Positions 4,611 through 53,612 of a stretch of DNA of 55,122 nucleotides are shown one piece after another. The notes beneath the pieces are model-generated. The model saw nothing but the letters and a program-made list of their open reading frames with translations. It made no database searches and was not told where the DNA came from. This DNA is from Spirochaetota bacterium (GTDB lineage Bacteria; Spirochaetota; UBA4802; UB4802). The stretch is from contig JARYLT010000010.1 in the NCBI GenBank assembly GCA_029907515.1, positions 1 to 55,122 on the forward strand. The letters are read 5' to 3'. The number at the start of each line of letters is the position of its first letter. The stretch's first letter is position 1. A program made the translations under genes and the position numbers.

Positions 4611-5795
4611 ATGGCAATAAAATATCTGGATCAGATCAACGTCAGCAATAAAAAGGTTTTAATACGTGCAGATTTCAATGTGCCGTACGATAAAAACATG
4701 AATATAACTGACGATACCAGAATCACTTCTACATTGCCAACTATTGAATATTGTTTAAAACAGAATGCAACTGTAATTTTAGTATCCCACTTAGGAAGGC
4801 CAAAAGGAAAGCCAGTACCTGAAATGTCATTAAAACCTGTTGCCAAACGGCTTTCAGAGTTGTTAAAAAAAGATGTAGTATTTATTGATAAACCTATTAC
4901 GCAGGGAATTCAGGATGAAATTAATAAATTAAAACCCGGTGATGTGGCGCTTCTGGAAAATATACGGTTTTACCCGGAAGAAGAAAAAAATGATGAAAAT
5001 TTTGGCAAATTATTAGGTGCATTGGCAGACGTGTATGTTAATGATGCATTTGCAACAGCTCACCGTGGACATGCTTCAAATGAAGCTATAACACGCTATG
5101 TCAAAGAATGTGTTGCAGGCTTTTTAATGAAAGATGAACTTGAATATTTTAAAAAGGCTCTGGTTCAGCCACAAAAACCTGTAACAGCAATCATTGGCGG
5201 TGTAAAAATTTCCACAAAAATTGAAGTACTGAAAAATATAATTCCCAAAGTTGACAATCTTCTTATTGGCGGGGGTATGTCATATACATTTTTAAAGGCA
5301 TTGGGATATAATATTGGTAAATCTGTTGTTGAAGAAGACCAGCTTAATACAGCAAAGGAAATTATTGAACTGGCCAAAAAGCACAATGTCAACTTACTTT
5401 TACCAGAAGACATTGTTGTGTCTAACAAGTTTGACAGTCCAGAAGGTAAAGAAGTTGTTCCAATTACCAGTATCCCAGATAACAAAGAGGGCGTTGACAT
5501 TGGCCCTGCCACCCGTAAAAAGTTTGCTGAAATTATAAAACAATCAAAAACAGTTATATGGAATGGGCCATTAGGTGCTTTTGAAACAAAAGAATTTGCT
5601 GAGGGCACCGGGGAAATTGCTAAAATAGTTGCCGAGTCAGGTTGTACAAGCGTTATCGGGGGCGGTGATACTGGTGCAGCAATTAATTCTTCAGGTTATG
5701 CTGACAAAATGACCTACATCTCCACAGCAGGTGGTGCATTCCTGGAACTTATGGAAGGGAAAATACTGCCAGCAGTTAAAGCTCTGGACAAATAA
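4611..5795 (+). CDS. pgk: Phosphoglycerate kinase
   Basis: KVLIRADFNVP, VSHLGRPKG, LLENIRFYPEEEKND, GGGDTGAA motifs; 394 aa. Confidence 0.97.
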   Translation: MAIKYLDQINVSNKKVLIRADFNVPYDKNMNITDDTRITSTLPTIEYCLKQNATVILVSHLGRPKGKPVPEMSLKPVAKRLSELLKKDVVFIDKPITQGIQDEINKLKPGDVALLENIRFYPEEEKNDENFGKLLGALADVYVNDAFATAHRGHASNEAITRYVKECVAGFLMKDELEYFKKALVQPQKPVTAIIGGVKISTKIEVLKNIIPKVDNLLIGGGMSYTFLKALGYNIGKSVVEEDQLNTAKEIIELAKKHNVNLLLPEDIVVSNKFDSPEGKEVVPITSIPDNKEGVDIGPATRKKFAEIIKQSKTVIWNGPLGAFETKEFAEGTGEIAKIVAESGCTSVIGGGDTGAAINSSGYADKMTYISTAGGAFLELMEGKILPAVKALDK

Positions 5796-5797
5796 AC

Positions 5798-5809
5798 AGT
5801 AACTATCGC
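5798..5809 (+). repeat. Dispersed motif AGTAACTATCGC (exact), followed by ACATAA
   Basis: Exact 12-mer immediately after pgk stop. Confidence 0.8.
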
Positions 5810-5819
5810 ACATAAAAAT

Positions 5820-5852
5820 AAAAAAGCGGGTTTTATGATAACCCGCTTTTTT
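5820..5852. terminator. Bidirectional intrinsic terminator between convergent pgk and response regulator
   Basis: AAAAAAGCGGGTT-TTATGAT-AACCCGCTTTTTT. Confidence 0.9.
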
Positions 5853-5890
5853 AATACCATAGCAATAAAAATTTTTGCACAATTTGTTAT

Positions 5891-5902
5891 GCGATAGTTA
5901 CT
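5891..5902 (-). repeat. Dispersed motif AGTAACTATCGC (exact, inverted), followed by ATAA
   Basis: GCGATAGTTACT on + strand; overlaps the stop of the response regulator. Confidence 0.8.
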
Positions 5903-6275
5903 ACATAGTAAGTGCTTTCTTGATTGTTGCCACCAGATTATCTGGATTGACCGGTTTCTGGAAAACACCATTAAAACCCAACTTATCGATTTCAATATTA
6001 GTTGCAGTTGCTGTACCAATGCTGCTTAAAAGATAGATTGGTATTGAAGGGTTGCTCTTCTTAATTTCCTGGGCAACTTTTGTACCTGCGTCTATTCTTT
6101 CCATCATCATATCACATAAAATGAGATCTGGTTTGCTGCTTGCAACAGCGTCAATACCTTCTTTTCCACTCATTGCAGTAACTACATCAAATCCATTTGC
6201 TGAAAGAATAGCTTTGATAGAATCTAAAATATCCGGATCATCATCAATTACTAAGATAATTTTCTTATTTGCCAT
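5901..6275 (-). CDS. Stand-alone response regulator receiver protein
   Basis: VIDDDPDILDSI, DLILCDMMM, FQKPVNPDNL; AGGAG SD upstream of ATG at 6275. Confidence 0.9.
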   Translation of the reverse strand: MANKKIILVIDDDPDILDSIKAILSANGFDVVTAMSGKEGIDAVASSKPDLILCDMMMERIDAGTKVAQEIKKSNPSIPIYLLSSIGTATATNIEIDKLGFNGVFQKPVNPDNLVATIKKALTM

Positions 6276-6302
6276 ACTTATCACTCCTGGTTAGTAGTAA
6301 AA

Positions 6303-11959: not shown

Positions 11960-12031
11960 GCGGGTGTAATTCAGTGGTAGAATGTCAGCTTCCCAAGCTG
12001 AACGCCGTGGGTTCGAGTCCCATCACCCGCT
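11960..12031 (+). tRNA. tRNA-Gly(CCC)
   Basis: Acceptor GCGGGTG/CACCCGC, anticodon arm TCAGC-TTCCCAA-GCTGA, T-arm GGGTTCGAGTCCC. Confidence 0.95.
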
Positions 12032-12057: not shown

Positions 12058-12069
12058 AGTAACTATCGC
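12058..12069 (+). repeat. Dispersed motif AGTAACTATCGC (exact), extended AGTAACTATCGCCCATAA
   Basis: Exact 12-mer between tRNA-Gly and cysK. Confidence 0.8.
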
Positions 12070-12175: not shown

Positions 12176-13120
12176 ATGCAAAAGGCTAATTCACATGTTG
12201 TAAATGTTACTACTCACTCCCTTATTGCTGCCATAGGGAATACTCCTCTTATTGAGTTATCAAAACTTTCACCCAAAGGAAGCAGAATATTAGCAAAATT
12301 TGAAGGTGCAAATCCTGGCGGTTCCATAAAAGACCGTACAGCCTGGTACATGATTAAAAAAGCAATTGAATCAGGAACATTAACGCCCAACAAAACTATA
12401 CTTGAACCAACAAGTGGGAATACGGGTATTGGTCTTGCAATGGTTGGTTCTGTATTAGGATACAAAGTTGTTCTTTGCATGCCAAAATGTGTCAGCGTTG
12501 AACGCCAGCAAACGCTTATTGCGTTTGGAGCACAATTAGTGTTGACTGATGGTTGCATGGGTACTGATGGTGCAATAATCCAGGCACATAAAATGTATGA
12601 AGAAAATCCAGATGTTTATTTTATGCCCAATCAGTTTTCCAATCCGGCAAATGTACTGGCGCACTATGAAACAACCGGAGCAGAAATTCTGGAGCAAACT
12701 GGCGGGCAGATAAGCGCTTTTGTAGCAGGACTGGGAACCACAGGAACCATTATGGGTGTAGCCAAAAGACTAAAAGAATATAATCCAAAAATCAAGATAA
12801 TTGGCGTTGAACCTGTCCCAGGTCATTCAATTCAGGGTTTAAAGAATATGCAGGAGGCGATAGTTCCTGATATATATAATCCCGGCATGCTTGATGACAT
12901 CATTACCATTGACGATGAAACCGCATTTGAACATACACGCAAATTAGCATTACAGGAAGGCCTTTTCTGTGGCATGTCAAGCGGTGCTGCCGTTGCAGGA
13001 AGCATTCAGGTTGCAAACGATCTGAAACAGGGTACTGTGGTTACTATCCTACCCGACAGGGGTGATCGATACCTTTCAACATCGCTATTCCAATCAATTT
13101 GCGCCAAATGCCCACCGTAA
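12176..13120 (+). CDS. cysK: Cysteine synthase (O-acetylserine sulfhydrylase)
   Basis: IGNTPLIELSKL, NPGGSIKDRTAW, EPTSGNTGIGLAMV, GLGTTGTIMGV. Confidence 0.93.
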   Translation: MQKANSHVVNVTTHSLIAAIGNTPLIELSKLSPKGSRILAKFEGANPGGSIKDRTAWYMIKKAIESGTLTPNKTILEPTSGNTGIGLAMVGSVLGYKVVLCMPKCVSVERQQTLIAFGAQLVLTDGCMGTDGAIIQAHKMYEENPDVYFMPNQFSNPANVLAHYETTGAEILEQTGGQISAFVAGLGTTGTIMGVAKRLKEYNPKIKIIGVEPVPGHSIQGLKNMQEAIVPDIYNPGMLDDIITIDDETAFEHTRKLALQEGLFCGMSSGAAVAGSIQVANDLKQGTVVTILPDRGDRYLSTSLFQSICAKCPP

Positions 13121-13142: not shown

Positions 13143-14414
13143 TCAAAGTTCTATCGAACCTTCAATTTTTTCTTCAGATACCGATGTTATCATGACAGGT
13201 ACTATCGAACCCAACTTGCTTCTACTATAATGATAATTTTCAAGTGCAACTTTTAGATAGGTATCGGTAAGTGCCGTTATACCATCCCCATCTTTTTCTA
13301 TGACTGCTGGACGAATTGTATTTAAAAACTGTAAACGATACTGGTATGAACATTCTCGTGCGACATCGCGCAAACGTTGTGCTCTGGCATGGATAATATC
13401 ATATGGCAATGGGCGATAGTTACTGGAAAGTGTCCCTTCCCTGGGTGAATAGCTGAACTGATGAACATAGGCAAACGACAATCGTTGTACCAATTCTAAC
13501 GTTGCTTCAAAATCTTTTTCTGTTTCTGAAGGGTATCCAACAATAATATCAGTACCGATAGCAATCTCTGGCATTGATGTCCTTATTGTGTCAATGAGCT
13601 TTGTATAGAAATCTACTGAATATGGCCGATTCATGTGCCGAAGAACAGGATCAGAACCTGATTGCAGCGGCAGGTGAATGTGTTTGCAAACTTTATCATG
13701 CTTTAAAATATCTATCAGTTCTTCACTAAGGTGTGTAGGTTCAACTGACGTTACCCGTACTCTGAAATTACCATCAAGAGTAATTATTTTCTTTATAAGC
13801 GATGCTAATGTATCATCGTTATACTGATATTTACCAATAGTTATACCAGTTAATACAATTTCAGGACAATTACATTCAATCAAAAATTGTGCATGTTTTA
13901 CAATATCATCCACCGGCCTTGATGTTGGATTACCACGCACTTTTGGGACAATGCAATATGAGCATCCCCCATCACATCCATCCTGAATTTTGATATAGCC
14001 ACGCGTTCGCATAAATGGCAATGCATACGCATTTGCAATAGTACTTATGGAAGTGTCTCCATTATCTGTATCAATTGCCCCTGATAAAATAACCAGTTGA
14101 TCTTTTTGCATATTTGTAAATGATGCCTGTACTTCATTCATGGCATCAAGTTCATCTTTATGTGTTTCAACCATGCAACCCGTAACAATGACCTTGCCAG
14201 TTTTGGAAAATTTTGAACCCTGGCGAATATAATTACGGCATTTTTTATTGCTTTTATCTGTCACTGTGCAGGTGTTAATGATAACAATATCTGCAGGAGA
14301 GCCAAAGGGGACCGCTTTAAAACCTGAAGATAAAAACTGTGATGCTATCTGAGCAGATTCATACTGATTACATTTACACCCTAACGTCTTTATTGAAAAC
14401 GTTTTTTCATACAT
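13143..14414 (-). CDS. mtaB: tRNA (t6A37) methylthiotransferase MtaB
   Basis: KTLGCKCNQYES, radical SAM CDGGCSYCIVPKVRG; 423 aa. Confidence 0.9.
   Translation of the reverse strand: MYEKTFSIKTLGCKCNQYESAQIASQFLSSGFKAVPFGSPADIVIINTCTVTDKSNKKCRNYIRQGSKFSKTGKVIVTGCMVETHKDELDAMNEVQASFTNMQKDQLVILSGAIDTDNGDTSISTIANAYALPFMRTRGYIKIQDGCDGGCSYCIVPKVRGNPTSRPVDDIVKHAQFLIECNCPEIVLTGITIGKYQYNDDTLASLIKKIITLDGNFRVRVTSVEPTHLSEELIDILKHDKVCKHIHLPLQSGSDPVLRHMNRPYSVDFYTKLIDTIRTSMPEIAIGTDIIVGYPSETEKDFEATLELVQRLSFAYVHQFSYSPREGTLSSNYRPLPYDIIHARAQRLRDVARECSYQYRLQFLNTIRPAVIEKDGDGITALTDTYLKVALENYHYSRSKLGSIVPVMITSVSEEKIEGSIEL
13413..13424 (-). repeat. Dispersed motif AGTAACTATCGC (exact) inside mtaB
   Basis: GCGATAGTTACT on +; encodes S-N-Y-R-P in mtaB. 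Confidence 0.75.
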
Positions 14415-20961: not shown

Positions 20962-22120
20962 TTTGCCTTTTTAACTCTTTAAGTTCTTCTAAATCCTGAA
21001 TTTTTTTATCTACATTTTTATGATATGGATTATAATCCCTTGCTTTTTTAAATTCTTCGATAGCACCATCTATATCATCTGTAATAAAATATTTTATGCC
21101 TCGCTGATAATGAACTTCAGCTTTTAATTTATCCTCTAAAGTAATGACCTTTGGTATAAGTTTAAAGGTAACGGTAAAAGAATAAATAGGGCCAAATACA
21201 CCTGCATCCTGATATGAAGCATCTATAACAAATGCAATGTTCTTAATGGCATAGTTAAAACCCAGGCCAAATGTATATTTACCTGCATCATTGAATCTAT
21301 ATCCACCTCTAAAAAATAAAATATCAAGATAATTTAATTCAACACCTGCATTGATTCTAAAGCTTTCATTAAATCCTGAAGTAAAGTCATACAGGTCAGA
21401 TGATGTAATAGCATTTTCTATCAAATCAACATTAAAACCAAAAAAATGTGACATTTTATATGATAATCCTGCACGGATTAATCGTGGCAGACTATCATCT
21501 TTAGCATTTGTTCCAATATTTTGTATTGATAATCCAAGAGATAAATTTCTTATTGGAGCATCAAAAGGGGAAAACATTGTTATACGTTTCAAAATTCCTG
21601 CATCAAATGCAAAGGATTGCAATTGCAATGTATCAATTTGTTGATAGATATATTTTATTGATCCCCCTACTTCCATAAATCCTAAGGAATAACCATACGC
21701 CACGATGCCACTAACATTGTAAAAATTAACTGTTCCAATCTTATTCCCGTTAATATCAATCTTATCAAAAGGGGGGACCCAGAAAACTGAAGTTGAAAAA
21801 CCAAAAAAACCATTCCATACTGGAAATGCTAATGAAACATTTTCAAATCTTGAATCTACTATTAATTCTTGATGCATTAAACTCATAACCGGGAACTTCA
21901 GAGTACCCAATCCAGCTGGATTGTAATAAATAGCATTTACATCACCAACTTCAGCAGTAAATGCTTCACCCATACCAAGCGGTCTGCTGCCAACACCAAT
22001 TTCCAAAAAATCGGCACCAGAAGTTCCTCCTGAACCTGCTGCATATGTATATTGGGAAGTAAAAATAAATAATAACAGTATTATTAAGAAAAAAATATTA
22101 TATTTTTCAGTATGTATCAT
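20924..22120 (-). CDS. PorV/PorQ-type (UPF0164-like) outer membrane protein with C-terminal TPR/coiled segment
   Basis: SGADFLEIGVGSRPLGMGEAFTAEVGDVNAIYYNPAGLG motif. Confidence 0.85.
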   Translation of the reverse strand: MIHTEKYNIFFLIILLLFIFTSQYTYAAGSGGTSGADFLEIGVGSRPLGMGEAFTAEVGDVNAIYYNPAGLGTLKFPVMSLMHQELIVDSRFENVSLAFPVWNGFFGFSTSVFWVPPFDKIDINGNKIGTVNFYNVSGIVAYGYSLGFMEVGGSIKYIYQQIDTLQLQSFAFDAGILKRITMFSPFDAPIRNLSLGLSIQNIGTNAKDDSLPRLIRAGLSYKMSHFFGFNVDLIENAITSSDLYDFTSGFNESFRINAGVELNYLDILFFRGGYRFNDAGKYTFGLGFNYAIKNIAFVIDASYQDAGVFGPIYSFTVTFKLIPKVITLEDKLKAEVHYQRGIKYFITDDIDGAIEEFKKARDYNPYHKNVDKKIQDLEELKELKRQNELLEKEQQKIR

Positions 22121-25092: not shown

Positions 25093-26347
25093 AAGCTTTT
25101 CGCCTTGGGATTGATACAATAACTCTTTCTATAGATCTATCGGTTGCTTCTTCAATCTGGAATGTTATGTGCTGGTAATGTATTTTCTCACCAACCTCAG
25201 GAATATGCCCCAGTACATATAATAGAAAACCTGCTAATGTTTCAAAATCTCGCTTTTCAATTTTTATTCCAAAACGTCGCTGGAAATATTCAATATCCAG
25301 GTCCCCGGCAACACTGAATTTCCATGGTGCTATCTCTTTAATTGAATCATCCTGTGGATGATCCCTTGTTTGTATCTCACCCACAATTTCTTCGGCAATA
25401 TCTTCATCAGTTAACAACCCTTCTACAGCACCGTACTCGTTCACAACAAAAACCATTGATATTTCTTGTTCTTCCATTTCATCTATAAGCTCATATATTT
25501 TTTTTGAAGAAGGAACAAAATACGGTTTCCGTATTATTTGATCAATATTTTTCACGGATTTGTTTTTTAATATATCCTGATAATATATATATCCAATGAT
25601 ATTATCAACCCTTTCCTCAAAAACAGGTATTCTTGAAAACCTGGTTTTTTCAATCAATTCTATGCAATGTTTTATAGACTGTTTCTTTTCAACTGAGATA
25701 ATATCTATAAGTGGAGTCATAACCTCATTTGCTCTCACATCCCTGAAAGAAAGTATCTCATTGAAATAGATGTAGTGTTGCGATTCAATAATACCTTCTT
25801 TTTCCACGGCTTTAAACAATGTATCAATTTCGTCACGGGAACTTATAGGTAACGGCCTGGAATCATCTTCATGAATTGCGTTCTTTATAACAGTGGCAAA
25901 AGCCAGTGTTATGGTAACCAGTGGCCTGAATATTAATGAAATAACTTGAAATAGCCAGAACGTATGCAGTAAAAATTTTTCTGGCTTTGAACGCGAAACA
26001 ATTTTTGGAAAAAGCTCACAAAAAATCAAAAAGAATATAGTCTGGGCGATAGTTACTATGAAAAGCCTGGAATCATGTATTAAAAGTGCTTTGCTAGCAA
26101 AAAATGTTATAAACGCAGTTGCACCAATATTAGATATATTGTTTCCTATAAGAACTGCTACCAGTGCACTGTCGGGATTTTCAATTATTTGCATAATACT
26201 CTTAGCTCTTGTTATTCCTTTATTGACAAGTGCCTGAACATTTATAATATTACTTGATACTATAGCTGTTTCAGTTGCAGAAAAGAATGCAGAAAGAAAT
26301 GTAAAAATTATGATAAGAATTTGTGATCCAATATATATTTCCATCAT
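25076..26347 (-). CDS. CNNM/DUF21 + CBS domain + CorC/HlyC family protein
   Basis: DUF21-like TM region, MTPLIDIISVEK CBS, VVNEYGAVEGLLTDEDIAEEIVGEI. Confidence 0.92.
   Translation of the reverse strand: MMEIYIGSQILIIIFTFLSAFFSATETAIVSSNIINVQALVNKGITRAKSIMQIIENPDSALVAVLIGNNISNIGATAFITFFASKALLIHDSRLFIVTIAQTIFFLIFCELFPKIVSRSKPEKFLLHTFWLFQVISLIFRPLVTITLAFATVIKNAIHEDDSRPLPISSRDEIDTLFKAVEKEGIIESQHYIYFNEILSFRDVRANEVMTPLIDIISVEKKQSIKHCIELIEKTRFSRIPVFEERVDNIIGYIYYQDILKNKSVKNIDQIIRKPYFVPSSKKIYELIDEMEEQEISMVFVVNEYGAVEGLLTDEDIAEEIVGEIQTRDHPQDDSIKEIAPWKFSVAGDLDIEYFQRRFGIKIEKRDFETLAGFLLYVLGHIPEVGEKIHYQHITFQIEEATDRSIERVIVSIPRRKASIGQA
26046..26057 (-). repeat. Dispersed motif AGTAACTATCGC (exact) inside CorC-like gene
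   Basis: Encodes V-T-I-A in this CDS. Confidence 0.75.
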
Positions 26348-28058: not shown

Positions 28059-28925
28059 TTACTTTTTAAAGTCAAGAACCACATTAAAGCTAATTGATTG
28101 AGAGGTTTGATTGCCCGCGAAGTCTTCTGCAATAACTGTCAGATTATTAATTCCCGGGTTATACGAAACATTTGTTACTAAATAATTCCCTTTGCTATCA
28201 TATAAATTTTCAAATGGTAACCCTTTAATTGTCAACTTATTTTTATTATCAAGTTTTATTGCATCAAATTTGACATCTGTAACAGTAACATTATTTAAAA
28301 TCACTTTCAGGGAAAAAACACCGCAACGCTCATTTTTCTGAATGGCATCAAAACACTGAATAGCAAGAGGATGATGTTGGGTTAACCTTATATTACCACC
28401 TTCACGTAGTCTCGTGTAACTATCGCCCACTTTAATATATACTGCTTCTATAACTGGTGGTTTTTTATCATCAATTGATGGCATCACTGTAAAAGGATTT
28501 ACTGATACAATAAAATGATTCAAAATAGCAAAATGAAGATGTGTTCCATACGATCTTCCAGTATTCCCCATAAATGCTAAGCTGTCAGTAAGCGCATAAC
28601 GTGGTTGCAAATGTATATTATTTTCTAAATGAACATACAATGACTTCTCTTTTTTATTATGTTCCAGTATGCAATAGTTGCCAACTCCGGGATATTGTTC
28701 CAGAGGGAATAATGCTTTGTCCCAGGCAAAAACTAAATTTCCTTCCTTTACGGGATATACCTTTTTGTCAATTGAAGATATATCCACTCCATTATGGAAA
28801 TGATCAGGACGTGGCTCCCCAAATGTTGAATGTATTGTTCCGTTTTGAACAGGGAACTGGAATGATAATAGAAAACATGATAATACAACTAAGGAAAAAA
28901 TTATAAATAATTTATCTTCTTTCAT
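28059..28925 (-). CDS. M23 family peptidase-like exported protein
   Basis: STFGEPRPDHFHNGVDIS, GTHLHFAIL; ATG at 28925 after GAGG. Confidence 0.88.
   Translation of the reverse strand: MKEDKLFIIFSLVVLSCFLLSFQFPVQNGTIHSTFGEPRPDHFHNGVDISSIDKKVYPVKEGNLVFAWDKALFPLEQYPGVGNYCILEHNKKEKSLYVHLENNIHLQPRYALTDSLAFMGNTGRSYGTHLHFAILNHFIVSVNPFTVMPSIDDKKPPVIEAVYIKVGDSYTRLREGGNIRLTQHHPLAIQCFDAIQKNERCGVFSLKVILNNVTVTDVKFDAIKLDNKNKLTIKGLPFENLYDSKGNYLVTNVSYNPGINNLTVIAEDFAGNQTSQSISFNVVLDFKK
28415..28426 (+). repeat. Dispersed motif, 11/12 (TGTAACTATCGC, followed by CCA) inside M23 gene
   Basis: Differs from the consensus at the first base only; GDSYT in the CDS. Confidence 0.65.
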
Positions 28926-28933
28926 ATATATCC

Positions 28934-31189
28934 TCAATGAGATTCCGGTAATGTATGCACGGTGCAATATTCGCCAGGTTCAGTTCCTGCATAAAATAAT
29001 TCGTTGATTGCAACACGTGGGCATAACCCATCTTTTCGTGGAACCAAACCGGTATCCAGGCAGATAGTTTGTTTTGTAATTCCCTGCTCTGGTATAATAA
29101 ATGATTTATATTCTGAATCCTTATATATAGCAAATACATAATCAGCCCAAACAGGTGCTGCTACAACACCACCACTTCTTCCCTTGCCCAGAGAGATTGC
29201 ACCCGTTTTATTGCCAATCCACACTGCTGTAACAGAATCAGGAGTATACCCCAAAAACCACGCATCAACGTAGTCACTACTTGTACCTGTTTTGCCTGCA
29301 ACATCAACTGGAACCGATTTATTTTTGAATACCCATGATGCTGTACCACCTTCTTCAAATACACCTTTCAACATTGAAACCACAACTGCGCATGCAACAG
29401 GGTCAATTATCTTGCCATATTCTTTTCGTTTTTCCTGTATTTGCAATAAAACCTCTTCTTCATTATTCCAGACAATATTTCCATTATAATCTTTAACATA
29501 GCGTATACCATAGGGAATAATAAAATCGCCACCATTAACAATAACTGAATGCAATATACAATTTTCTAGTGGCGATAGTTCATATGTACCCAGCGCCAAT
29601 GACAATGTTTTATAAAAACGGGAATCCAGTTCACTGCTGGACAAATTAAGAGCTTTTTGTATAATTGACATAATGCGGGAATATCCCTCTTTTTCAAGGA
29701 CCTGAACTGCAACAACATTGATCGATTTCTTTAAGGCTTCTCGTACTATTACCTTTCCTGAGTATATCCCATCATAATTTTTAGGGGAATATCCACCCTT
29801 AAACGTCATGGGTATATCATCAAAAATTGTTGAAGGTGTTATAACCTTATCCTGAATAGCCGCAACGTATACTACTGGCTTAAACGATGATCCAGGCTGT
29901 CTTCGTATTTGCTGAACATGGTCCATCTGGTTTTGATAAGAAAAGCTGTAACCACCAGCATACGCTATAATTTCTCCGGTAAATGGATTAATTGATACAA
30001 AAGCTCCCTCAATATTTTTGGCTTTTTCCATTTCAGCCAGTGCACGCTCTGGATTTTTTATATATTTTGCATTCTTTTCGTGATACTCTCTTTGTAATTG
30101 TATGCCTTTCTTCAACGCAGTTAGTGCAATATCCTGTTTTGTAGCATCCAGCGTAGTATATACACTTAACCCCCCCTTTTTCACAACTTCCTCAGAAAAT
30201 TTATTTACCAGTATTCTTCGTATATATTCATTGAAAAATGGTGCTCTATTAATACGATATAAACTGAATATGAAGCTTCCTATTAACGATGATTCCGCAG
30301 TACTATCCTTTGAAAATTGGACATCCCATTGTTTTAAAAAATTTTTATACTGAATTTCGGCCATCTGTTGTTTTAAAAAGCCTGCATCAACCATCGATTT
30401 CAAAATCCTTCTTGTTTTCTTTAGTGAAACATCAAGGTTATTAAGTGGTGAATAAATAAGTGGATTTGAGATAGTAGCCACGATCATTGCACATTCAGTT
30501 TCGTTACAATCTATGATTGACTTACCAAAAAACATTTTTGCAGCAGCTTCAACACCATACGCACCATTACCAAAATATATATAATTAAGGTACATTGATA
30601 GGATGTCCTGCTTGTCATAATGTTTTTCTATTTCCAGTGCACAAAATATTTCATATATTTTGCGCTTTATATTACGCTCCATATCAGTAAACAGCACTTT
30701 TGCCAGTTGTTGCGTGATAGTGCTGCCCCCCTGTACAACTCTCAGATGTATCAGATTGACAGCAAATGCCCGTAAAATGCCTTTTAAACTAACACCATTA
30801 TGAACATAAAAATCTCTGTCTTCACTGGCAATAACTGCTTTGATAAGCCATTTTGGGAAGTATGAATAAGGAACTATCTCCCTTTTTTGTTCAAAAAATT
30901 CGCCTATTATTTCGTTATTGCGATCATAAATTCTGGTAGGAATATCTACAACTTTTGCAGAAACATCTATCTCACTATACGTATATGAATAACCTTCCTT
31001 CAATTCCTCTGTGCGATCAATCAGTTGTTTATATTTGAAAAGCTTATCAAGGGTCTTTTGTTTGTCATGTATCCATTCGATATATACAATTGATGTATAC
31101 AACAGAATCACAGTAAGAACAATAACAGGAATCCCAATAAATGTAAAAAATTTATGTTTTTTTATCCAATCAAATAGATTAACATCCAT
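28934..31189 (-). CDS. Penicillin-binding protein 1A/1C-type (transglycosylase/transpeptidase)
   Basis: ASEDRDFYVHNGVSLKGILRA, GGSTITQQLAKVLF, RQPGSSFKPVVY, AGKTGTSSDYVDAWFLGYTP. Confidence 0.95.
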   Translation of the reverse strand: MDVNLFDWIKKHKFFTFIGIPVIVLTVILLYTSIVYIEWIHDKQKTLDKLFKYKQLIDRTEELKEGYSYTYSEIDVSAKVVDIPTRIYDRNNEIIGEFFEQKREIVPYSYFPKWLIKAVIASEDRDFYVHNGVSLKGILRAFAVNLIHLRVVQGGSTITQQLAKVLFTDMERNIKRKIYEIFCALEIEKHYDKQDILSMYLNYIYFGNGAYGVEAAAKMFFGKSIIDCNETECAMIVATISNPLIYSPLNNLDVSLKKTRRILKSMVDAGFLKQQMAEIQYKNFLKQWDVQFSKDSTAESSLIGSFIFSLYRINRAPFFNEYIRRILVNKFSEEVVKKGGLSVYTTLDATKQDIALTALKKGIQLQREYHEKNAKYIKNPERALAEMEKAKNIEGAFVSINPFTGEIIAYAGGYSFSYQNQMDHVQQIRRQPGSSFKPVVYVAAIQDKVITPSTIFDDIPMTFKGGYSPKNYDGIYSGKVIVREALKKSINVVAVQVLEKEGYSRIMSIIQKALNLSSSELDSRFYKTLSLALGTYELSPLENCILHSVIVNGGDFIIPYGIRYVKDYNGNIVWNNEEEVLLQIQEKRKEYGKIIDPVACAVVVSMLKGVFEEGGTASWVFKNKSVPVDVAGKTGTSSDYVDAWFLGYTPDSVTAVWIGNKTGAISLGKGRSGGVVAAPVWADYVFAIYKDSEYKSFIIPEQGITKQTICLDTGLVPRKDGLCPRVAINELFYAGTEPGEYCTVHTLPESH

Positions 31190-37281: not shown

Positions 37282-37293
37282 GCGATAGTCACT
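37282..37293 (-). repeat. Dispersed motif, 11/12 (GCGATAGTCACT)
   Basis: Intergenic between asd and argC. Confidence 0.6.
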
Positions 37294-39399: not shown

Positions 39400-39411
39400 G
39401 CGATAGTTACT
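39400..39411 (-). repeat. Dispersed motif AGTAACTATCGC (exact), palindromic variant AGTAA-CTATCGC-TTACT
   Basis: 18 bp upstream of ptsI start. Confidence 0.75.
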
Positions 39412-39429: not shown

Positions 39430-41175
39430 ATGTCCAAATCAATAGAAGGAGTTATTGCTTCACCAGGTATAGTCATAGGAAAAGCCTATATTTATCGAGG
39501 TGACAATATCATTATTCCCAAATACACCATAACAGATGACCAGGTTGAAAAAGAAATACAAAGGTATGATGAATCCCTTGCAAAAACCAAAGAAGAAATC
39601 AAAGCTATACAATCGCAGATAGCAACCAGTTTATCCAATGATATGGCCGATATATTCAAAAGCCATTTGATGGTTCTTGAAGATCCATATCTGGATCAAA
39701 AAGTTCGTGAAACCATCAGCAAGGAAAAACGTAATGCAGAATGGGTTTTGAATGATATCACATTACAACTGATTCAGAGCTTAAAATCAATTGAAGATGA
39801 ATATTTGCGTGAACGAATTATCGATATCTCGGATATTAACAAGCGGCTTATTAATAATTTACAAAAAACACACGATGAATCACTGGCCGATTTAAAAGAA
39901 GAGGTTATTGTAGTAGCAACTGACCTGACGCCATCTGATACGGCTATGATGAATAAAAAATATGTTTTGGGTTTCATTACCGATCGTGGTGGCAGAACTT
40001 CCCATACAGCAATTATGGCACGTGCACTGGAAATCCCCGCAATAGTTGGTACCCAGGTTGGCACTTCACTTATAAAGCACGGTGATACTATCATACTGGA
40101 TGCTATACACGGGAAAATAATTGTTAACCCATCCAAAGATGAAATTGGTGAATATGAAAAATACCGCGAAGATCTAAAACAGCTTGAAAATGAATTAGCC
40201 GCTATAATTGAACTTCCTTCCCATACTCTTGATAATGAAACTATATATATTTATGGCAATATAGAAATCCCCGATGAAATGAATATTATACGGGATCACG
40301 GTGCACAGGGTATTGGGCTTTTTAGATCAGAATTTTTGTTTCTGGATAAATCTTTACCTGATGAAGAAAAACAGTTTGAAGAATATAAAAAGGTAGTTGA
40401 ATTCTTTAATCCTCACCCTGTTACCATTCGAACGCTTGATATAGGTGGCGATAAGATTTATGCTTTTACCAAGCAATACAAAGAGCGAAATCCCTTCTTA
40501 GGATGTAGAGCCATACGATTTAGCCTTGAAAATGAATTTTTATTCAGGCCACAACTCAGAGCAATACTTCGCGCTTCTGCATATGGCAATGTTAAATTGA
40601 TGTTTCCCATGATTTCTTCTGTTGAAGAGCTTCTCAAAGCAAAATCAATTTTATATGAAGAAATGGAAAATTTACAGAAATTGGGAGTACCTTTTAATCA
40701 AAATTTACCGGTTGGTATAATGATTGAGGTACCTTCAGCCGCAATAAATGTTGATATATTCTGTAAATATTGTGATTTCTTTTCTGTTGGAACCAATGAC
40801 CTGGTTCAATACACATTAGCTGTTGACCGTATCAGTGAAAAAATAGCATATCTTTATAATCCGCTAAATCTGGCTGTACTAAGACTTTTAAAATTAATTG
40901 CTGATGTAGCAAATCAGAATAATATCTCTCTTTCAATATGCGGTGAGATGGCAGGTGAACCAAAATATACCATGCTTTTACTTGGTTTAGGATACCGCCA
41001 ATTATCTATGGGTTCTGCATTCATGTACCAGATTAAACGTATCATACGTTCTGTTACCGTTGAGGAGTGTAAAAACATGGTTAACAATTTGATGCAACTG
41101 GATAATACGTATGACATAGAAAATGCAATGTTGGAACTATTAAACAAAAAATTTCCCAATATGTTTTTCAAATAA
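39430..41175 (+). CDS. ptsI: Phosphoenolpyruvate-protein phosphotransferase (PTS enzyme I)
   Basis: GGRTSHTAIMARALEIPAIVGT, GIGLFRSEFLFLD, FFSVGTNDLVQYTLAVDR. Confidence 0.96.
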   Translation: MSKSIEGVIASPGIVIGKAYIYRGDNIIIPKYTITDDQVEKEIQRYDESLAKTKEEIKAIQSQIATSLSNDMADIFKSHLMVLEDPYLDQKVRETISKEKRNAEWVLNDITLQLIQSLKSIEDEYLRERIIDISDINKRLINNLQKTHDESLADLKEEVIVVATDLTPSDTAMMNKKYVLGFITDRGGRTSHTAIMARALEIPAIVGTQVGTSLIKHGDTIILDAIHGKIIVNPSKDEIGEYEKYREDLKQLENELAAIIELPSHTLDNETIYIYGNIEIPDEMNIIRDHGAQGIGLFRSEFLFLDKSLPDEEKQFEEYKKVVEFFNPHPVTIRTLDIGGDKIYAFTKQYKERNPFLGCRAIRFSLENEFLFRPQLRAILRASAYGNVKLMFPMISSVEELLKAKSILYEEMENLQKLGVPFNQNLPVGIMIEVPSAAINVDIFCKYCDFFSVGTNDLVQYTLAVDRISEKIAYLYNPLNLAVLRLLKLIADVANQNNISLSICGEMAGEPKYTMLLLGLGYRQLSMGSAFMYQIKRIIRSVTVEECKNMVNNLMQLDNTYDIENAMLELLNKKFPNMFFK

Positions 41176-48098: not shown

Positions 48099-48110
48099 GC
48101 GATAGTTATT
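48099..48110 (-). repeat. Dispersed motif, 11/12 (GCGATAGTTATT)
   Basis: Adjacent to the tRNA cluster terminator. Confidence 0.55.
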
Positions 48111-52973: not shown

Positions 52974-53612
52974 CTATAGACAATACACTGCAATAAACTC
53001 ATTAAAATACTTATATCCCCAAATCTGTTTTTTCAACTTTAACGTACACTCTGCAAGCATATCGTAAAACCTGTTTTCAGCACAGGCAATCATATCCCCA
53101 ATAAAAACTACAGTATGCCCCCCAGCATATTTATAAGCCTGTAATGCCTCTAAAGCCATGGTACTTTGTGGCTGAGGCCAGCATAAAAAGAGTGTCCGTT
53201 CTGGATACTGTCCTGCTTCCAGTGCATCACCTTTTTGAACATCGTACCATTGTTCATCAAACCACACATTATCTGAGTGATTAACAAACGGATATTGAGC
53301 ATCATCTGGGGGATATTTATCAAATGCAACCACATCAGCACCCACCTGCTTCAGCATATAAGCCCAGTATCCATTGCCTGCACCTATTTCAATTATGGGC
53401 GATAGTTCCTGTATAAGAGACAGTACCTGAAAGGTTGGTACTGCAAATGCATACTTTTTTATCAGTTCATAGCGCAAGTTCCAGTACTGGTATTCATCCA
53501 GGTGCTTATCTTTATACTGTAGTATTTCTTGTAAATAAGGGTTATGGATAGTGAAGTCTAATTCATCGGGAATATAGCGGAATATATCATATTCACTGAA
53601 AGTGTTTTGCAT
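52974..53612 (-). CDS. Predicted SAM-dependent methyltransferase-like protein
   Basis: IIEIGAGNGYWAYMLKQVGADVVAFD. Confidence 0.65.
   Translation of the reverse strand: MQNTFSEYDIFRYIPDELDFTIHNPYLQEILQYKDKHLDEYQYWNLRYELIKKYAFAVPTFQVLSLIQELSPIIEIGAGNGYWAYMLKQVGADVVAFDKYPPDDAQYPFVNHSDNVWFDEQWYDVQKGDALEAGQYPERTLFLCWPQPQSTMALEALQAYKYAGGHTVVFIGDMIACAENRFYDMLAECTLKLKKQIWGYKYFNEFIAVYCL
53399..53410 (-). repeat. Dispersed motif, 11/12 (GCGATAGTTCCT; extended TTATGGGCGATAGTT)
   Basis: Inside the methyltransferase-like CDS (E-L-S-P-I). Confidence 0.5.

Follow-up and report, generated by a model that had tools for sequence, protein, structure and literature searches.

Where pgk and a response-regulator gene converge, a 12-mer occurs twice in inverted orientation, on either side of a terminator. 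Is this arrangement a structure proper to gene ends, as an initial annotation proposed by comparison with the inverted uptake-sequence pairs of Neisseria, or does it say something about the 12-mer itself? We addressed this question in the window, i.e. the whole 55,122-nucleotide stretch of Spirochaetota DNA that contains the locus, and in the five genomes of its uncultured genus that were compared (G000, G001, G002, G003 and G004). The inverted pair is where the annotation had placed it, both copies being exact and the terminator lying between them (Table 1). The arms are separated by 81 bp (89 bp core to core), and the right one runs into the response-regulator stop codon.

Table 1. Positions in the window of the pgk locus and of further copies of the motif.
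Feature	Position	Strand	Evidence
pgk, phosphoglycerate kinase	4611..5795	+	Pfam PF00162, 522.8 bits
Left motif copy, 12-mer AGTAACTATCGC	5798..5809	+	exact match; matrix 25.6 bits
Left copy, extended match CAGTAACTATCGCACATAA	5797-5815	+	motif matrix
Bidirectional intrinsic terminator	5819..5853	both	14-bp stem, 7-nt loop, A/T runs on both sides
Right motif copy, inverted	5891..5902	-	exact match; matrix 20.0 bits
Response-regulator receiver protein gene	5901..6284	-	Pfam PF00072, 83.5 bits
Motif copy just 3' of tRNA gene (11960-12031)	12058..12069	+	12-mer match
Motif copy AGGAACTATCGC inside PLP-dependent enzyme gene	12857..12868	-	12-mer match
Motif copy inside radical-SAM gene	13413..13424	-	12-mer match
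Motif copy inside CNNM/CorC-family gene	26046..26057	-	12-mer match
Motif copy TGTAACTATCGC inside ORF 28059-28967	28415..28426	+	12-mer match
Intergenic motif copy AGTGACTATCGC	37282..37293	-	12-mer match
Motif copy upstream of ORF 39430-41175	39400..39411	-	12-mer match
Motif copy AATAACTATCGC adjoining tRNA cluster	48099..48110	-	12-mer match
Best-scoring window copy CAGGAACTATCGCCCATAA, inside ORF 52974-53612	53399..53410	-	29.0 bits

When folded as single-stranded RNA, the 113-nt stretch at the end of pgk forms a long hairpin of -39.3 kcal/mol (shuffled sequences, -13.0 +/- 2.9 kcal/mol; z = -9.2), to which the terminator on its own contributes -18.6 kcal/mol and in which a 13-bp outer stem made of the motif arms can close over the terminator. 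That the outer copies can extend the hairpin, as had been suggested, is therefore borne out by the fold. The pair is also present in three of the four species in which the locus was compared, namely G000, G002 and G003. In G003 the cores are 89 bp apart, the same as in the window, and extra sequence lies 5' of the left arm; in G002 the distance is 74 bp and one of the arms carries a mismatch. Both observations would suit a functional extended terminator or a cruciform at the end of pgk. Against such a role, the terminator is complete without the motif arms and is itself found in all four species, including G004, which keeps it together with the left arm and lacks the right one. In G003, pgk and the pair are separated by some 120 bases able to form long hairpins (G003:C31, about 21560-21680); this stretch is confined to G003 and is possibly a small inserted repeat.

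A gene-end structure should be met at other gene ends, and this is where the proposal failed. In 1.88 Mb of stretches from the five genomes of the genus, containing 1,018 sites, convergent neighbours closer than 150 bp numbered 19, where shuffling the orientations predicts 13.4 (P = 0.05, marginal), and those closer than 60 bp numbered 5, against 4 expected; just three lay within 30 bp. The strong half of the sites did show an excess of convergent pairs under 150 bp (10 vs 4.5, P = 0.004), same-strand close pairs being nearly absent (1) and divergent ones numbering 7. Most of the close pairs listed fall within one gene. Tight inverted pairs that would themselves serve as intrinsic terminators were essentially absent from the 1.88 Mb, nearly every copy of the motif lies alone, and the pgk locus was the sole case of motif arms placed around a terminator. 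Thus, although the locus is conserved in three species, inverted gene-end pairs had to be rejected as a class, and we regard a functional role of the pair in termination or cruciform formation as very improbable. The situation in Neisseria and Haemophilus is different, as there the paired copies lie within about 21 bp and themselves form the terminator stem, whereas the stem at pgk is a different sequence and its motif arms are farther apart. In H. influenzae 86-028NP, 109 pairs of uptake signal sequences (USS) lie within 14 bp of each other (PMC7811141); such terminator pairs are a frequent accompaniment of USS and of the DNA uptake sequences (DUS) of Neisseriaceae, and are not needed for uptake (PMC2397512). 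The pgk pair consists of two independent copies of a directional, genus-wide motif that chance to flank an ordinary terminator, and the extension of the hairpin by the outer arms is probably a by-product. What is out of the ordinary is the motif, not the pair.

In the 3.49-Mb source genome, the motif CAGKARCTATCGCHHA, T-rich on its 5' side, is present once per ~1.6-2 kb, i.e. in about 2,000 copies. A matrix refined iteratively on 419 kb of this genome gave, after the T-rich 5' side, the consensus CAG[GT]A[AG]CTATCGC[CAT][AC]A, in which the 8-base core ACTATCGC is near-invariant, the CAGK-A prefix is degenerate, and the sides are T-rich and A-rich. In the same 419 kb, 255 sites exceed the matrix threshold, vs 16 in reversed-sequence controls, which corresponds to about one per 1.6 kb; the mean gap between sites is 1.7 kb. 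Exact counts over the whole source genome tell the same story, with 276 copies of the 11-mer GTAACTATCGC (2 for the reversed control) and 811 of the 9-mer (32 for the reversed control). The window itself holds 22 copies with at most two mismatches where 2.5 are expected, a number reached by none of 100 shuffles. The only known RNA families detected in the window are tRNAs. A search of the literature for the literal 9-mer gave, among the matches listed and as far as their titles and the beginnings of their abstracts tell, no relevant account.

The motif is a property of the genus. The exact 11-mer occurs 210-286 times in each of the five genus genomes and 0-4 times in each of 291 sampled genomes from elsewhere in the phylum; the exact 9-mer occurs 421-945 times per genus genome, vs 26-44 for its reversed control. 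No comparably enriched k-mer was found in stretches from six other genera of the order. The nearest named relatives of the genus, in a tree of Pgk, are MAGs labelled Spirochaetes (100/100 support). Within the genus a dialect can be recognised: in G004 the variant AGCTATCGC reaches 0.181 per kb, vs 0.02-0.07 in the other genus genomes (P = 1.6e-18 on matrix-selected sites), and AACTATCGC is halved. This dialect accounts for the lower 9-mer count of G004.

Conservation was examined by aligning stretches of G000 to the other genus genomes, with frame-matched controls. A perfect 8-base core was kept at 62% of sites vs 26% of controls in G002 (P = 2e-4), at 53% vs 20% in G004 (P = 0.003) and at 24% vs 7% in G001 (P = 0.03, weak); in the closest genome, G003, the values were 70% vs 50%, not significant with n = 10. 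Conservation of the flanks ends about 12 bases to either side of the motif. In the alignments of G000 with G002, the differences in the core are never gaps; they are substitutions, several of them toward the consensus. A mobile repeat of the REP or MITE kind was rejected, since there is neither an insertion signature nor an extended homologous element and the core is ungapped. No depletion of sites was seen in sequence that does not align between species (0.50 vs 0.46 per kb, in a small sample), which speaks against a role in uptake.

Genes contain 86% of the sites and 88% of the bases, so that density is equal within genes and between them, and the sites run with the gene strand in 445 cases and against it in 431. 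A transcription-factor site was rejected on these two grounds. Spacing depends on orientation. Up to 2 kb, same-strand pairs reach 0.15-0.8 of the expected count, a deficit that fades by 4 kb; for strong sites the values are 0-0.8 up to 4 kb. Counts of opposite-strand pairs range from about 0.7 of expectation in the closest bins to about 1.4. Neighbouring sites are accordingly on opposite strands more often than on the same strand (591 vs 383, P = 3e-11), a tendency that holds in every one of the five genomes. The copies of either orientation thus form an evenly spaced set of their own, from which we infer that the reader of the motif is sensitive to its direction. This repulsion between same-strand copies sets a quantitative constraint on any explanation.

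As of 2025, only Neisseriaceae and Pasteurellaceae were known to discriminate homologous DNA by means of short enriched motifs, which are 9-12 nt long, highly enriched and organised in dialects (PMC12616744), with a spacing of about 1.0-1.5 kb (PMC7811141, PMC2397512). In our analysis the features of the spirochaete motif match those of DUS and USS: a short core with degenerate AT-rich sides, spacing, placement, conservation and dialects (PMC12616744, PMC7811141, PMC2397512, PMC5031613). The USS of Pasteurellaceae (Haemophilus influenzae AAGTGCGGT) have the same build, with a near-invariant core, weaker AT-rich flanks and about one copy per 1-2 kb, are located in coding and non-coding DNA alike, and are common to related species, with variants. 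They differ in being of unrelated sequence and in another phylum, in their tight terminator pairs, which are essentially absent from the spirochaete motif, and in that no type IV pilus or PilT was found in the spirochaete genus. The DUS of Neisseriaceae (e.g. ATGCCGTCTGAA) share the 12-nt scale, species dialects and a spacing of ~1.5 kb (PMC2397512); their sequence is likewise unrelated, and no ComP-like receptor is known in the spirochaete genus. The comparison with uptake sequences made in the initial annotation is well supported as a likeness, the motif being genome-wide, genus-specific, conserved, dialect-bearing and of DUS/USS density; the inverted pair as a gene-end structure is not supported.

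The best-supported explanation, and one that we consider somewhat probable from these likenesses, is that the motif works like a DNA uptake sequence. In this model, DNA bearing the motif would be preferred by a surface receptor of the competence apparatus, DNA of the genus would therefore be preferentially taken up and recombined, and biased uptake together with homologous recombination would maintain the copies by drive, selection or both. Uptake as the function, and a receptor as the reader of the motif, are both what we infer to be most likely. It is a more tentative suggestion, which we would put forward with less than even confidence, that this is a third, independently evolved uptake-sequence system, located in Spirochaetota, dependent on direction and operating without a type IV pilus of the PilT type.

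The competence genes of the genus give a mixed picture. ComEC, the channel of the inner membrane, is intact in four of the five genomes; it is short (641 aa) and falls below the cut-off of the NCBI ComEC/Rec2 equivalog, and a gene with a phosphoribosyltransferase domain (ComF-like) lies near it. In G004, only the last ~37 codons of comEC are present, at the end of a contig (G004:C67, 16,336 bases), and the remaining part was not found in the assembly. We rejected a link between an apparent loss of comEC and the lower 9-mer count of this genome, as the remnant is at a contig end and the count reflects the dialect. DprA is present in all five genomes, and both ComEC and DprA are also found in relatives free of the motif. 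Each genus genome, as well as the relatives from the order that were examined, has two DprA-family genes (in G000, G000:C174:13966-14583 and G000:C190:280-879). The outer part that such an apparatus usually has was not found: in the genus genomes, no PilT exceeded the curated cut-off, no type IV pilus was found and stand-alone ComEA had no convincing match. Pilin-like genes were found in the genus at a single locus, a type II secretion system that genera without the motif also have. This locus (G002:C18:66000-80000; G000:C168:8000-16915) encodes GspD, E, G, I-like, K, M, PilM-like/L and further pseudopilins with N-methylation signatures; it was undetected in G001 (93% complete).

The main rivals of uptake are a Chi-type and a chromosome-organising role. 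Chi sites are short, lie mostly on the leading strand and differ between genera. A Chi-like directional recombination signal, read by an end-processing enzyme of the RecBCD/AddAB type particular to the genus, would resemble the motif in being directional, dense and genome-wide, and an oriented function fits the same-strand repulsion and the independence between strands. The near-lack of strand bias argues against it: 85 sites are on the plus and 92 on the minus strand of a 340-kb stretch with an overall skew of -0.106, and 426 vs 486 are on the G-rich and C-rich strands overall. The consensus is moreover longer, its flanks degenerate, and its ~138-fold excess, for the 11-mer, above that known of Chi. 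On the absence of a strong strand bias we rejected Chi itself or any other replication-polar motif, and a Chi-like signal in the wider sense seems to us unlikely, if worth keeping in mind. The same small chance goes to the motif being bound, at regular spacing on each strand, by a chromosome-organising or nucleoid protein specific to the genus. Such sites would be expected genome-wide, in genes and between them, with even spacing per strand, and they would not require competence machinery; known segregation and nucleoid sites are, however, unlike some 2,000 oriented, non-palindromic, genus-restricted and dialect-bearing sites, and there is no clear skew with replication.

The HIP1 element of cyanobacteria (GCGATCGC) is similar as an abundant short motif, genome-wide and mostly in genes; unlike the oriented spirochaete motif, with its strand-dependent spacing, HIP1 is palindromic. 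Least probable of all is that a methylation or defence system uses the motif to mark self DNA. A genus-specific, non-palindromic and dense motif might serve this purpose, but restriction-modification sites are short, exact and normally not enriched, whereas the motif is longer, with degenerate flanks.

Should uptake prove to be the function, a third case in another phylum would mean that sequence-selective sex evolved repeatedly, and would provide a fresh system in which to ask whether uptake tags spread by drive or by selection; were the receptor not a type IV pilin, the range of known mechanisms of selective uptake would grow. If the function lies elsewhere, some 2,000 oriented sites still form a genus-wide signature that calls for an explanation.

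Two minor observations concern the distribution of sites and of other words. Between 16227 and 26045, the window has 9.8 kb without an over-threshold site, occupied by ordinary housekeeping genes (RF-1, RNase PH, a GTPase and a radical-SAM protein resembling spore photoproduct lyase). In G003, the 8-mer GCAATGAC, unrelated to the motif, is likewise enriched, with 72 copies vs 8.8 expected in 371 kb.
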